Shown one piece after another: positions 52,125-58,396 of a stretch of 64,000 bases of DNA. Below the pieces are notes generated by a model. It made no database searches. It saw only the letters and a program-made list of their open reading frames with translations, and had not been told where the DNA came from. Position 1 is the first letter of the stretch. Every line of letters starts with the position of its first letter. Source of the stretch: Dentipellis sp. KUC8613 (Eukaryota; Basidiomycota; Agaricomycetes; Russulales; Hericiaceae); the NCBI GenBank assembly GCA_002286715.1, contig NSJX01000020.1:319873-383872 (forward strand), written 5' to 3'. The position numbers and the translations under genes are program-made.

Positions 52125-55100
52125 ATGCCGTCGAGTACGTTTCTCGCTATGTATATCGGCTTGAGTTCGACTAACAACTCTGGTTTGGTCAGTTACCGAA
52201 GTCGATGACGCAGACGACAGGCGTTCGTTGAAGCCGTCGTTGCGCACCCGCGCTAGCGAATGGAGCACGGATGTCGGTTCTTCAGGTGAGGGTCCCGTGC
52301 CGTTCGCAAGACTTTATCGGTAGCTGACGCGGCCTACTGTCACGACTCGTGCCCGTTGCGCGGACACAGATCCCGATAGCCAGATAATGCAGGCGACGTT
52401 CTCGCCTTCATCCGGCAGGGAGGACACCTCTGAGAGGAAAGACGTCCGCTTGCGTACGTTCCTGCTTCGCAGTTGCAGTTTGCTGCTACTGAATTTGTCG
52501 TTCAGTTGAATCAGACGCACTGGATATAGCCGCCGAGGATCTGTTTGTACCGCCCGTTGCTTCTTCTGCAGGCATAACTGGTCAGCGGAGCGAGACTACA
52601 CTGAGACCCGACGACGACCGCGTGAATGGTCCACCGCGCAGAAGGCATTCTGACGAATCCATGTCTCAGCAGTCCGGGGATGAGTCCAAACCCTTTGGCA
52701 ATGAGGGCACTGATAGTGAGGAGCCCGGAGTATGGTCCCATGATGTTCGTGCTTCGGGGAGGAGGAAGACAAGGTACATGTTTGGTGTCAGACACAATGT
52801 GCAGAGATCTCGTATGTTGAATTCCTTCATATGATGATATGAAATACTTACTCATTTCTGATGGGTAGAATACATCAATCCAGATGACTATGAGCACAAG
52901 TATCCTCCTGATGACTTCAGGCAATGCCTTAAGCCCAATGCTCGAGTTTGGAAGGTGTACTTTGATGAAGCCAAGATGATGGATGATGATATGGTTGAAG
53001 CATGGAAGGACACCATTGATGTCCTTCTTGTCTTTGTATGTTTTACATATAAAGTTAGTATAAATACTGATGCTTTATCAATTTCAGGCTGGTCTCTTCT
53101 CTGCAGTTGTCACCACTTTTGTTGTCCAGAGCTCTCAGTCTCTCAAGCCTGATTATTCTCAGGTCTCTGCCATGCTTCTCACTGAAATGGTTGGCCTTCA
53201 GAGGGCATTATCTGATGGTGTCTCTCCAAGCATGATTCCTGTGTCCCAGCAAAATGCTACCTCTGGCTTTGAAGTTGCTCTCTCTGATAAATGGGTCAAC
53301 AGACTCTGGTTTATCAGTCTATCTTTCAGCTTGGCTACAGCTCTGATATCTGTCTTGGTGAAGCAATGGCTTCAATATTATGTGTCACCCATCTCTGGGG
53401 GTAGCCAAGAAAAGGCTCATGTCAGACATTTTCATTATACTGGCCTAGAAAAATGGCATGTCCCTGTGATTGTGGGATTTCTCCCTGTCTTCATGCATAC
53501 TGCATTGTTGCTGTTCTTTCTTGGACTGGTGCTCTTCTTGGTATCATTGGACAGACATACTGCAGGCATGATTGGGTTCTTGGCAATGCTTCTAGGTGTT
53601 TCCTATCTGACCACCAATGCCTTACCTGTCTTCTTTGTGGACTGTCCATATAAAACACTCATCTCAGAACTCTTCTCTAATGTCTGGCAATATTTCATGT
53701 CATGTGACCTCTATATAAAATCTCTCAGAGAAATTGAGACAGATGTTGTCAAGCAAAAAACAAGTGCACTAGATATGGAATCTTTGGTGTGGCTGTATAA
53801 TTCATCAACCAATCCCACAGTGTCAAATATTGTCTTACAAGCATTGTCTAACATCAATTTTGATGTGCATGATATGCAGGCCTTCACAAATCTAAACATA
53901 CAGCTCAAGGTGGAGCTGATGCTTCATCATCATCTGTCATTATGTGAAGATCAGGAGAATTATAGCCAGCCTGAGATGATGAATTATATGTGGTCATTGA
54001 TGTTTTTCCCCATTATTTTTCCTGATCTGCAGAGGCTGTACCATACCAGTTCCCAGTACAAGCTGATAGAAGCACTTGAGTCAACTGTCATTCCACTGAC
54101 TGTGCATGTCCCCTACCAGTATAAAACACATGCTCACTTCAAATCATGTGATGAAGCTCATTATATAGTCAATGTTGTGAAAGGGCTGATATATGAATTC
54201 TCTGGGATGTTTGAAGCTCAGGGTGCTGCAGTTGCTCTGAAGGCTATCACAAAAATCTACAAAGGAGTAATCTCCAATCACCCTCATATATTCTTTGGGT
54301 GGTATTTTGATACAATACATGAGATGCCAGATCAAGGTTACCTTGATAATTCATTTGAGACATATGATAACTTTATGGCTTTAAAGCTCATAGCCCAGTG
54401 CTGCAATGTCTATGATGAAGATTCTCATCAACCCTGGGAATCTGAATTCTTAGATGATATCAAGGCTGTCCTGATTGCAGTATTGAAGTTTAATTTTGAA
54501 AACTTGCTGTGGTATGAGATCTATAGTGATAAACAGAAGAGTGCAATGATTTATTTGTGCAACCATCTCATTGAGACAGAATGTGAAGCAATTTCACAAC
54601 ACTCACCACTTGCTCCATATCATGAGCATAAAACTCTTGCTCAAGTAACTGTAGATGCCATCATTTCTCTTCCCTCATTGCTGGAAATTTTACCTGAACA
54701 ATGTGTCATAAATCAGCTCTCTTCTTTCAACAATTTATGCAAATCTTATCAGATCATTATACACAGTGATCAATCATTGAACATGTTCAGCTCTGGCATG
54801 AATTCTGCTGTCTTAAATGTTGACTTTCCAAGCTTGTTGAAAAGCTGGACTTTGATACTCCAACACCTGTTGAATAGAGTCTTTAGAACTGAGTGTGCTG
54901 GAAGATTGTTACTGATCACTGCATCTACAATGGGTCAACTAGTTAAGAATGATATAAAAAGTGGTAGAACTGTCCACATCCTGACTAGACATGGCATATT
55001 TGATATATTGCACAGCTATCATCTCACAATGCCTCATGTCATTGAAGATAATTTTGAGCCTGAAAATGCTTCTGATGTTTTGGATTTATATCATATTGCC

Positions 55101-55448
55101 ATTGAAAATTTTAAAGCTCATCCTGATGTGATTAAATATCTGAGCCATCCTAATAATATCAGACTCTATCTCTTGTTCTTCCCAAACTGTATTATTGACC
55201 CACTAAAATATATACATTGGGTTCATTTATTCAGATGGTTCTCAATTGTTCATGAGAAGAACCTAGTTGACCATACTTTATGGGTTGATCTTGTCAGAAA
55301 GTTGCTGCAAATTGGCATGTCTAGAGAACCATATCCAACTTTGAATCATAAATTCATAGTAGAACTGGTAAAAGTTGTTGATGCCAAACTTTCACCAGCA
55401 GAGGAGCAATTTTTAGAAGAAGTTGAAGCCAGCAACACCAATCTGTAA
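52125..55448 (+). CDS. DUF6535 multi-pass membrane protein in a CpG-free block
   Basis: About 1006 residues from exons 52125-52134, 52193-52285, 52370-52453, 52506-52811, 52869-53035 and 53088-55448. Residues 1-163 are acidic and disordered. The DUF6535 domain follows (about 165-345): VWKVYFDEAKMMDDDMVEAW, KDTIDVLLVFAGLFSAVVTT, FVVQSSQSLKPDYSQ, with four membrane spans (the last two near GFLPVFMHTALLLFFLGLVL and FLAMLLGVSYLTTNALPVFF). The remaining 650 residues are helical and unrecognised. The family is large and lineage-specific in Agaricomycetes; its role is unknown. The 10-nt first exon is a guess. From about 52945 to 55572 the DNA has no CG dinucleotide, so Arg codons are only AGA/AGG, while exons 1-4 have normal CpG. 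The 3' end is unsettled (a GTAAGT overlaps the TAA, and a good-looking ORF follows at 55472-55684). Confidence 0.85.
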
Positions 55449-56427
55449 GTTTTTTTCTTTCTTTTTTTGATGTGTTCAAATTACTGATGCAGCTTGCAAT
55501 AAGGTCAACATTTGAGTCTTCTGAGAGCCAAGAACTACAGCATAGCTATTCCATCATAGTCCACATGCTTCACCGTGATATGTCTTCTCTAGCAGTATGT
55601 GATTTCATGAATTTTGGAGTCTTTCACTCATATCTCTCTTCAGAATCTAGGACCATGGGACAAGTTGCATCCTCAGCCTGTTGAGGCCTCTGTCATGGCA
55701 AAAAAATCTTCAGCTAGATGAAGCACCTAGCTTGAGTGAGCAGAAACACTGGTGGCAATTATCTGCAAAGAAAATGCAAGGAGAAGGTTCTGAAAATGTT
55801 TAACTTGTACCTAAATTTTCTTTAGCTTTACCTGTGCCAATGAATATAAATAGAAGACTGTACTCTCAACTTGTACAGAGTCAGAAAGGTGCACCAAATC
55901 CAGCTTATCAAATGGAATTATACATACTGTGTCACATCAGAGCAAGCCCTAGCCCAATCTCCAATGATTCCACCAACATACCTATGTAAAAAAAATCAGC
56001 AGCAGCCAAATCATTAGACTCACAAGATTACAACCAAAAATCACACAGCACATCATCCTGCAGACCAGCAAAGCCCACAACCAGAGCTTCAATTGCAACC
56101 CAAGCTCAGGCTGAGGCTGATGTTACACAAGTACTGGCAGTACACAAAAGTATGAAATACACGACCACATCATAAACCAGAACCATAACCAAGAGAAGAC
56201 AAAGAAAAAGATGCATAAGGCATAAGATATGACAAAAGGAGACAAAAGGAGAAATGTCTAAGGCAGGCAGGCACATCAGGGTCAGGGGTTGGCACAACAG
56301 GATGTAGAAGATGGTAGGATGGTAGAATGGATGGAGGTATGGATGGAAGAGGAGTAGGATGGGGGGACAGAACTGGAGCAGAAATCCAGCATCAGCAAAT
56401 CAATCCACCAGACCAGAAGCACATCCC
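52945..56427. other. CpG-depleted island inside CpG-rich DNA
   Basis: Read base by base: no CG between about 52945 and 55572, and only about three in the whole 3.5 kb to 56427, against many per 60-base line in the flanks. TG and CA are abundant. This is the footprint of long-term cytosine methylation and deamination. The coding frame inside is still open. The left edge falls within the DUF6535 gene, at the start of the domain; the right edge is in the intergenic region before the PIN gene. Confidence 0.9.
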
Positions 56428-56881
56428 GAATCCAGAAACACATACATTCCCAAAACCAAGCAGCAAACAGACCCAAATCCATGCCCATACCCATCAAACA
56501 ATCCCATGGTCCCAGCTCACCCAAAAACCCGAAACCCCGACCCCGACCCGCTCGAACCGAGGCGCCGACGCACGGACAGGCAGGCACGGACACGGACGTA
56601 GACATGGACACGGACACGGACACGACGCACGCATCTCCGGCGACCAGAGCCCCGCGCACCGAGTCCCGTCAGGCAAAAATCTGCCACCGCCCGGCTCCGA
56701 ATCCGAATCGAGGGGATCCGCAAACCGCAAATCCCCGTCTAGTAGTGTTTGACGATCAATCATGTCTGCCCGGACCCATCACATGAGCAAGGCCATCACA
56801 ACGGCACGACACCACCAGGCGAGAAAGCGACGAGAAGGCGCACCTGGAGTTGTACGCTTGTGCAAGCACACATGCATCCCG
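55449..56881. other. Mostly CpG-poor intergenic stretch with a possible C-terminal relic
   Basis: The first part (55472-55684, plus) is a 70-codon ORF with protein-like composition (FKLLMQLAIRSTFESS, HSYSIIVHMLHRDMSS), which may be the original C-terminus of the DUF6535 gene. After that I see no coding sequence; GGATGG-type simple repeats lie at 56308-56350. From 56430 rightwards CpG content returns to normal and a CGGACA/GACACGGACA run appears at 56578-56624. Confidence 0.5.
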
Positions 56882-58396
56882 CTACGGCTCGAGCTTCTCG
56901 CCGCGCGCAAGGACGCGCACGACCTTGCTCGGCTGCGCGACGAGGTCCATCATCGCCTTCACCGCGGGCGGGCGCTCGACCATCGTCTTGTCGCGGTCGC
57001 TCGCGTAGCCGGGGCCCGCCGGCTTGTAGTTCGCGTTCGCCGGCTTGTAGTTCGCGTTCGCCGGCTTGTAGTTCGCGCTCGCGGGCTTGTAGTTCGCGTT
57101 CGCCGACTTGAAGCTCGCGTTCGCCGGCTTGAAGCCCGCATTCGCCGGCTTGCGCCGGCCGTGGTGCACCGGGCTGCGGCGCGCGTCCTCGTCCGGCACG
57201 CGCGCGGGCTCGGTGGGCCCGTTCGGCTTGACCTCGAAGACGTCGATGCCCGCGCGCCTCGCCCAGTGCAGCACGAGCGCGCCGGACGAGCGCGGCTCGT
57301 ACTTGTTCGCGTGCGGCGCGGGGAGCGGGACGGGCGAGTCGGCCGCGGGCGCGCTCGGGCGGGGCGGGGAGGGCGGGGGGCCGGCGGTCTGCGAGAGGAC
57401 GGCGAGGACGACGCGCGGGCGGGGGTGCTGCTTTCCGGCTTCTTCTTCCTCTTCCTCTCCCTCCTTCCCTTTCTCTTTCTGCTGCTCGGGCGAGGCGCTC
57501 CGCTTGCCGGGGCCTGTGCTCGCGGCGAGCTCGACCTCCGCGTTCTCCTTGGTCCACTGCGCACAGGAGATGGTGCAGCGCAGCCACTCGGGCGATCCCA
57601 TCTGGGGCGCGTTTCCGGGGGACGCCTCGTCGGGGTTTGTCGAGGCCGGAGCCTGTGCTTGGAAGTCGATGTTGTCCCAGAGGACGAACGCCGAGTCGCG
57701 CTGCACGCGGATCCTGGGGTTCGTGCCGACCTGCGCCTCGAGGATGCGGGACGCGGTGCGCGCGCGCTGTGCGAGGTTCGTCGTGCCCTTCTTGAGCAGG
57801 TCGAGCGTGTTGAGTGCTGCGGAGCGCCCGTGAGTGACACAGGAACGGGTGGGGGAATGGAGATAGAGGCGCACCTTCGAGCGGGACGATGACGATTTCT
57901 TCCCGGCCTTCCCGGCACCACCGCTTCATCTGGCCCAGCCCGTAGACGAGGACGCTGGCGTCGACCACCACGATATCGGCGTCCTTTTCCACCTCCTTGC
58001 GCTCGTCCCGGATCTCCTCATCCCGCTTTGCTATCCTGATATCCTTCCCGTCCAGCGGTGCCCTCTCCTTCTCGCCCTCGACGACCTTCTTCGTGATGAC
58101 TTTGGGTCCAGCCGGGGCTTGCGTACGCTTCCCGCCGTAGTAAGGAGCGGGTTTCCCGTTCGGTGCATATATCTCGTGGTTGGTTCGCTGTATCGGCCGT
58201 CGTTCGCGCCAGTTGCGAGAGCCGGGTCCGGCGGTGACTGTCTTCTCGAGCTGTTCGACCTGGTGCGTGAGGAAAGCAGCGCCGAGAGCGCGAGACATGG
58301 CCATCTTGTTGCCTGTGGTGGCCGTGGCTCCCTAGAAAGAAGCATAAGTATCGAAACCAGCAGTATACGAATGAAGTTCACCCTTGCCTCTGCCAT
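56882..58396 (-). CDS. PIN-domain protein with a Lys-Pro-Ala-Asn heptad repeat
   Basis: 468 residues from three exons: 58396-58382, 58331-57875 and 57816-56882. The start is chosen because the 15-nt first exon (MAEAR) has a perfect GTGAAC/tctag intron and joins in frame to GATATTGNKMAMSRAL. Residues 1-110 are basic and partly coiled. The PIN (nuclease-like) fold follows: IVVVDASVLVYGLGQMKRWC with the metal-binding Asp near 129, EIVIVPLEALNTLDLLKKG with acidic residues near 157, then RIRVQRDSAFVLWDNIDF. A charged insertion (EKGKEGEEEEEEAGK) precedes VVLAVLSQ and a strand DVFEVK. The C-terminal third has seven or so KPANANY units (DNA 57005-57135). The domain is typical of RNA endonucleases such as Smg6 and Swt1, but the match to a named one is not firm. 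Confidence 0.83.
57005..57135 (-). repeat. 21-bp tandem repeat coding KPANANY
   Basis: On the top strand the unit is CCGGCTTGTAGTTCGCGTTCG, in about six to seven copies with small changes (KPANAGF, KPANASF, KSANANY, KPASANY, then KPANANY). All copies are in the same frame of the PIN protein gene and none breaks it. Confidence 0.9.

Follow-up and report, generated by a model that had tools for sequence, protein, structure and literature searches.

A clade of DUF6535 genes in Dentipellis sp. KUC8613 lies in long CpG deserts consistent with old gene-body methylation

Introduction

Why does a protein-coding block of 2.6 kb hold not a single CpG dinucleotide when the DNA around it is rich in them, and how has its reading frame stayed open? 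We addressed this question for a DUF6535 gene of the wood-dwelling basidiomycete Dentipellis sp. KUC8613, in a window of 64,000 nucleotides (the whole stretch of DNA analysed; contig NSJX01000020.1, positions 319,873 to 383,872). An initial annotation had read the block as the footprint of the cytosine methylation and deamination that basidiomycetes apply to repeats, left on a gene that was selected while its CpGs were erased, and had offered a methylated but expressed family, a recently moved copy or a normally silenced gene as explanations.

Gene-body methylation in animals and plants comes with CpG depletion, and RIP and MIP in fungi change C to T at methylated or targeted cytosines. Gene-body methylation has been compared across animals and plants (PMC7862722); in fungi it is described as rare, with exceptions (reviews PMC13297926, PMC7862722), among which Uncinocarpus reesii and Metarhizium robertsii are named (PMC7862722). 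RIP and MIP of fungi are named in PMC4352252. CpG methylation has been reported for Heterobasidion parviporum, which belongs to the same order as Dentipellis sp. KUC8613 (Russulales) and in which transcribed genes are less methylated than their own flanks (PMC7074731). A literature search of titles and abstract openings, covering few subscription journals, found no report of the CpG-desert pattern described below and met the name DUF6535 solely as a table entry in one paper.

Results and discussion

A CpG desert that begins inside a gene

By direct count, positions 52945-55573 contain no CpG (2629 bp between the CpGs at 52943 and 55574), which bears out the zero given by the initial annotation for 52945..55572, where about 122 would be expected with the codons of CpG-normal paralogues. 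The roughly three CpGs that it had placed up to 56427 were also recovered (55574, 56162 and 56427), and the desert proved wider than described, with a fourth CpG at 52943 (Table 1). The neighbouring DNA is CpG-rich, as had been stated: CpG density is 78 per kb just before the desert (52301-52811) and 138 per kb just after it (56531-57030). The CpG observed/expected ratio (O/E) of the window is 1.13, and the largest CpG-free gap elsewhere in it is 163 bp.

Three randomisations (n = 1000 each) were compared with the observed count of 0. Back-translation of the window protein with the codons of four CpG-normal paralogues gave 121.7 ± 8.0 CpGs (minimum 97), permutation of the protein's own synonymous codons gave 41.7 (minimum 24), and base shuffling of the block gave 98 (minimum 73). 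The absence of CpG is explicable neither by chance nor by codon use. CA and TG are raised in the block (O/E 1.49 and 1.61, versus 1.08 and 1.07 in the window), the GC dinucleotide is unchanged (O/E 1.12), and an 897-bp stretch 3' of the first stop, with 2 CpGs, has O/E values of 1.37 for TG and 1.53 for CA. CpG-specific loss combined with a gain of TG and CA is one feature of the footprint that gene-body methylation would leave.

Table 1. Coordinates of the CpG desert and of the parts of the DUF6535 gene, as positions in the window.
Feature	Position	Strand	Remarks
CpG desert	52813..56529	.	4 CpG in 3717 bp: 52943, 55574, 56162, 56427
CpG-rich 5' exon of the DUF6535 gene (at least its 3' part)	52493..52811	+	20 CpG in 319 bp; frame ends ...RHNVQRS
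Exon A, YINPDDYEHKYPPDDFRQCLKPNARVWKVYFDEAKMMDDDMVEAWKDTIDVLLVF, start of DUF6535	52869..53035	+	exon limits by eye; includes CpG 52943
Exon B, remaining DUF6535 and fast-evolving, predicted helical C-terminal region	53088..55445	+	ORF 53070-55448; 0 CpG
Possible last intron (55445-55492) and alternative stop (55500-55502)	55445..55502	+	inferred from splice signals seen by eye
3' non-coding portion of the desert	55503..56529	.	three CpGs

The 5' exon ends at a splice donor GT at 52812 (by eye), and the database proteins P0002-P0006 have a long N-terminal part preceding the domain, in the same order as in the window gene. Positions 1-31 of the PF20153 model match exon A at C81:372821-372913, and exon B, with 151.5 bits against PF20153 (cut-off 23.9), belongs to the DUF6535 family. 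The helices of exon B come from a low-confidence AlphaFold model (mean pLDDT 62.9), and a fold search with this model found helical-repeat proteins only as weak matches, without any at E <= 0.001, so we draw no function from it. If the last intron is unspliced, the stop lies at 55446-55448. Because the frame ends at either 55448 or 55502, the last kilobase of the desert is non-coding.

The extent of the desert follows the gene: its left edge is the end of the CpG-rich 5' exon, and its right edge lies within about 1.1 kb 3' of the stop. The last CpG before the desert, at 52811, overlaps the splice donor (C|GT); the desert's own first CpG, at 52943, belongs to an arginine CGA codon. Farther 3', at 57030-57125 of the window, CpGs recur with a periodicity of 21 bp, fitting an NYKPANA-like repeat encoded on the minus strand.

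One DUF6535 clade shares the desert

A PF20153 profile search of the genome gave 31 exon matches, which we grouped into 19 loci (the window gene and 18 others, designated by L numbers). The frames in L016 and L021 end where the database proteins P0004 and P0006, which bear the name Dentipellis sp. KUC8613, also end. Comparison with the other copies, which the initial annotation had proposed as a check, revealed the desert as a state of the family: 13 of the 19 loci are deserts, one (L020) is a half desert, and five (L022-L026) are CpG-normal with longest gaps of 70-95 bp. The desert loci are spread over four contigs, and their longest stretch without CpG measures between 699 and 3032 bp (contig ends truncate L010 and L017). 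By offset rather than alignment, CpGs in positions similar to those of the window gene occur in L012, L013, L014 and L017 (two each) and in L015 (one).

As in the window gene, the 5' end is spared in L021 and apparently in L013. In L021, dense CpG continues until 614 bp past the P0006 start codon; in L013, it continues until 294 bp past an IEVDDPD motif. The start of L013 is uncertain because this motif stands at residue 5 of P0002 but at residue 198 of L013's own model, P0003. Four of the 13 deserts were tried, and in two of these the 5'-end tag was not found. CpG is low, too, in about 1 kb of DNA next to L013. L020 (C80:103.9-106.2 kb), which is from another subfamily, starts CpG-rich, over 1.37 kb from the domain anchor, and then has a CpG-free gap of 927 bp; it is a desert beginning mid-gene.

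In a domain tree of 39 rows (L026 not among them), all 13 deserts group in a single clade (98/94) of 19 rows; the remaining six are five proteins of D. fragilis and one from a metagenome. The CpG-normal copies and L020 lie outside this clade, to which the full deserts of the family in this genome are restricted. The window copy stands well apart from its paralogues, with a domain dS of about 1.0-1.5. Given the divergence of the copies and a left edge within the gene, we rejected the suggestion of a recently moved copy; 13 copies share the same state.

Routes of CpG loss and selection on the protein

Only 30 CpGs occur in 9841 codons of the 13 desert copies, versus 492 in 2303 codons of four normal paralogues (counts exclude L020 and L026, and the baseline paralogues are distant from the desert copies); 18 of these 30 are in CGN arginine codons. 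Compared with the normal copies, TG at phase 3-1 rose by 56 per 1000 codons and CA fell by 14 (Fisher p 2e-10), while at phase 2-3 CA rose by 35 and TG by 13 per 1000 codons (Fisher p 0.008); the contrast at phase 1-2 was not significant (p 0.09). These codon-phase counts indicate that CpG was lost mostly via synonymous routes, leaving TG across codon boundaries and CA at the second and third codon positions. At two-fold third positions followed by G, C is found in 3 of 584 cases in deserts versus 80 of 145 in normal copies; before A or T its frequency in deserts is 0.48-0.51 (normal 0.63 and 0.54). C before C is also lowered (0.23 versus 0.49), and by our estimate the drop in GC is larger than CpG loss alone accounts for, from which it follows that a second bias acts.

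In pairwise comparison of the window copy with the other 12 desert copies, the domain has an omega of 0.12-0.28; outside the domain, substitutions relative to the window copy are saturated or nearly so. Exon B is open in all 13 copies over 754-913 codons (in L017, up to the contig end). However, a simulated ancestor exposed to blind deamination was still stop-free in 130 of 500 runs, so that the absence of stops in one gene is weak evidence for selection. The earlier claim that the gene was selected while its CpGs were erased therefore has to lean on other grounds than the open frame, and the synonymous routes and the low omega of the domain do support selection on the protein during CpG erasure.

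A segment of the C-terminal region behaves differently from the domain. At codons 300-450 after FSAVV, pN/pS is 1.1-1.9 in three of four close pairs and 0.57 in L011/L021 (segment copies L009, L010, L012, L013, L014 and L017), and in the domain it is 0.04-0.16. Diversifying selection may possibly act on this segment.

The loss might have involved no methylation at all, if selection or codon bias acted against CpG in transcripts or if CpG-poor DNA was imported. The composition itself is what speaks for such an origin, and we found nothing further in its favour. The avoidance of CpG spans codon boundaries, introns and the 3' non-coding flank, and the switch occurs inside the gene, with the 5' exon matching the surrounding DNA in composition. 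Moreover, residues after the domain start have a GARP-to-FYMINK ratio of 0.42-0.71 in the 13 desert copies and of at least 0.77 in 77 others, and among the homologues scored this shift was not seen in proteins of other genera. The scoring covered 80 of 91 homologues, three of them from this genome, with a tail limit of 350 residues; the five D. fragilis proteins, whose tails of 130-307 residues are under this limit, were left out. We consider an origin of this kind very improbable.

Persistence of CpG loss among close copies

Six close copies on contigs C2 and C155 (15 pairs, dS 0.14-0.36) allowed a comparison of differences by class. CG/TG differences amount to 5 of 2187 (0.23%), with other pyrimidine transitions at 7-9%, and CG/CA differences to 31 of 1985, with other transition classes at 7-11%. 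The CpG-rich upstream sequence, compared in five of these copies, has its highest values in the same classes, at 169 of 886 for CG/TG and 130 of 779 for CG/CA; as this control alignment is looser (58-91% identity), the comparison is valid for ratios between classes only. Because CG/TG differences are nearly absent, CpGs newly arising in the deserts would seem to be mostly removed, and the pattern indicates that CpG loss is still enforced there. The near-absence of CG/TG differences among close copies also provides an assay of maintenance that needs DNA alone and is applicable to any fungal genome.

Transposons, other families and repeat pairing

The initial annotation had tied the methylation footprint to repeats. 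Methylation and deamination are the best explanation of the CpG-specific loss and the gain of TG and CA, but the sampled repeats did not bear out this tie. None of eight reverse-transcriptase stretches of retroelements (sampled from 24 matches; O/E 0.74-1.08) and none of eight KDZ transposon probes (from 27 matches; O/E 0.62-1.19) is a desert, though three KDZ probes are mildly CpG-low (O/E 0.62-0.85). Likewise, no deserts were found in the samples of FunK1 (0/7, from 133 matches), P450 (0/5, from 114), F-box (0/4, from 142) or TET (0/3 probes, from 9). Probes for KDZ and these four families measured 240-428 bp. Each of the seven TET/JBP matches that pass the cut-off has a KDZ transposase match at a distance of about 2 kb (C171, C46, C24, C84, C1:2.14 Mb, C151 and C116); fungal transposons bearing TET genes are the topic of PMC12730594.

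These samples bear on a repeat-triggered premeiotic process, MIP- or RIP-like, in which paired duplicates were methylated and mutated, leaving the deserts as scars. The clade is multicopy, with six close members on C2 and C155 (dS 0.14-0.36), and multicopy paralogous genes have been reported as modified in Coprinopsis cinerea (PMC8889193). However, the window gene resembles the other copies only at 52856-53683 and 53769-53850, which is 910 of the 3717 bp of the desert (a search of the genome with 53070-55448 agrees; 55449-56529 was compared with the fetched DUF6535 copies only). Detectable similarity stops at 53850 and the desert runs on to 56529, so the mutated stretch does not coincide with the part still recognisable as duplicated. 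With similarity over only a quarter of the desert, repeat pairing is unlikely to be the present cause in the window gene. The upstream part, which the close copies also have in common, stays CpG-rich, and the retroelement, KDZ, FunK1, P450 and F-box samples are free of deserts, although the relatives of the one retroelement used for the repeat test have only 67-71% identity, short of a near-identical repeat.

The deserts thus resemble RIP and MIP in the C-to-T change at methylated or targeted cytosines and differ from them in that exon B is open in 13 copies, the extent is that of the gene rather than of the similar segment, and the sampled repeats are spared. A pairing phase in the past, before the copies diverged, is possible. 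Overall, we regard a RIP- or MIP-like origin as quite improbable.

DNA-methylase genes and the proposed explanation

Genes other than those of the family were expected to retain their CpGs if the loss was special to it. No gene in the rest of the window has an equal CpG loss, nor do 14 of 15 one-kb probes at fixed positions, but two DNA-methylase genes do: of five DNA-methylase matches, two (L042 and L044) are deserts and three are normal. The gene on contig C22 is CpG-rich at its 5' end, where the RFD part lies (135-162 CpG per kb), and falls to 1.6-3.6 CpG per kb inside the gene, across its BAH and methylase parts. On single exons it scores 28.9 bits against PF12047 and 33.8 bits against PF00145 (cut-off 22 for both), and its BAH match, at 20.6 bits on a single exon, is under the cut-off of 30.8; with RFD, BAH and C5 methylase in this order, it is classed by these matches as a DNMT1-RFD gene. 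In the gene on contig C128 the methylase part is a desert and CpGs return near the gene end; it scores 29.3 bits against PF00145 (cut-off 22) and 13.2 against BAH (cut-off 30.8), with an RFD-similar stretch seen by eye only. The methylase motifs look intact by eye.

The CpG-specificity of the loss, the gain of TG and CA, the gene-shaped extent and the persistence fit long-lasting 5-methylcytosine in the gene body followed by deamination. We propose, with a probability of roughly 0.7, that the block forms the body of a functional gene whose CpGs have been densely methylated in the germ line over a very long period, methylation being the cause that we infer from the DNA. Deamination of 5-methylcytosine to T would turn CpG into TpG or CpA, purifying selection would retain chiefly the changes that the protein tolerates, and changes recreating CpG would not persist. 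The putative mark would cover the gene body, beginning within the gene, sparing the 5' exon and ending within about 1.1 kb beyond the stop. It would track one DUF6535 clade and two DNA-methylase genes, one of them the DNMT1-RFD gene, rather than the sampled repeats.

The family might instead be normally unexpressed and heterochromatically silenced, methylated like transposons elsewhere, with its proteins conserved through expression at a rare stage. Strongly methylated genes of C. cinerea are reported as weakly expressed or silent (PMC8889193), and a negative correlation between gene-body methylation and expression is described for two Pleurotus species (PMC5974365). The CpG loss described here far exceeds the usual level under gene-body methylation. 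On the other hand, such a mark does not cover the 5' end, given the high CpG content of the 5' exon and upstream part, the sampled transposons are not deserts, and two DNA-methylase genes are among the deserts. We take silencing to be a possible but somewhat unlikely explanation; because it overlaps with gene-body methylation of a functional gene, differing mainly in the expression state, our confidences do not sum to one.

Gene-body methylation, our preferred reading, would be like that of animals and plants in that the mark lies within the gene and spares the 5' end, CpG becomes TpG or CpA, and the coding function is kept. It would differ in that the loss is near-complete and, as sampled, confined to one gene clade and two DNA-methylase genes. 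The modified multicopy paralogues of C. cinerea and Laccaria bicolor are a parallel among basidiomycetes for cytosine modification on multicopy genes; there, however, transposons are reported as the main target (PMC8889193), whereas here the sampled transposons keep their CpGs, and the FunK1, P450 and F-box samples are untouched.

A bolder version, which we put forward tentatively and think unlikely as it stands, is that permanent gene-body CpG methylation is a targeted state rather than a transposon defence, marking a fast-diversifying clade of membrane proteins and large parts of the fungus's own DNMT1-type genes. The mark would have been inherited through gene duplications, and the maintenance enzyme may have its own genes among its targets. 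If methylation is confirmed, the deserts would be a natural record of very old gene-restricted methylation, with CpG-normal paralogues as a control in the same genome, in a kingdom reported mostly to be without gene-body methylation. Two questions become testable: how a gene body is targeted without repeat pairing, and how coding sequence tolerates methylation over the long term.

Other CpG-poor sequences

Two retroelement stretches have one-sided CpG-free gaps of 519 and 651 bp, and the remaining fixed-position probe (L086, C155:45001-46000) has a CpG-free run of 644 bp. Together with the CpG-low flank of L013, these runs imply that deserts are not exclusive to DUF6535 and methylase genes. 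A+T-run patterns were tried as a desert finder and dropped, as they did not separate deserts from background in a test sequence. L086 has no long open frame and contains repeats with GGTACC; its contig, C155, bears three of the DUF6535 deserts.
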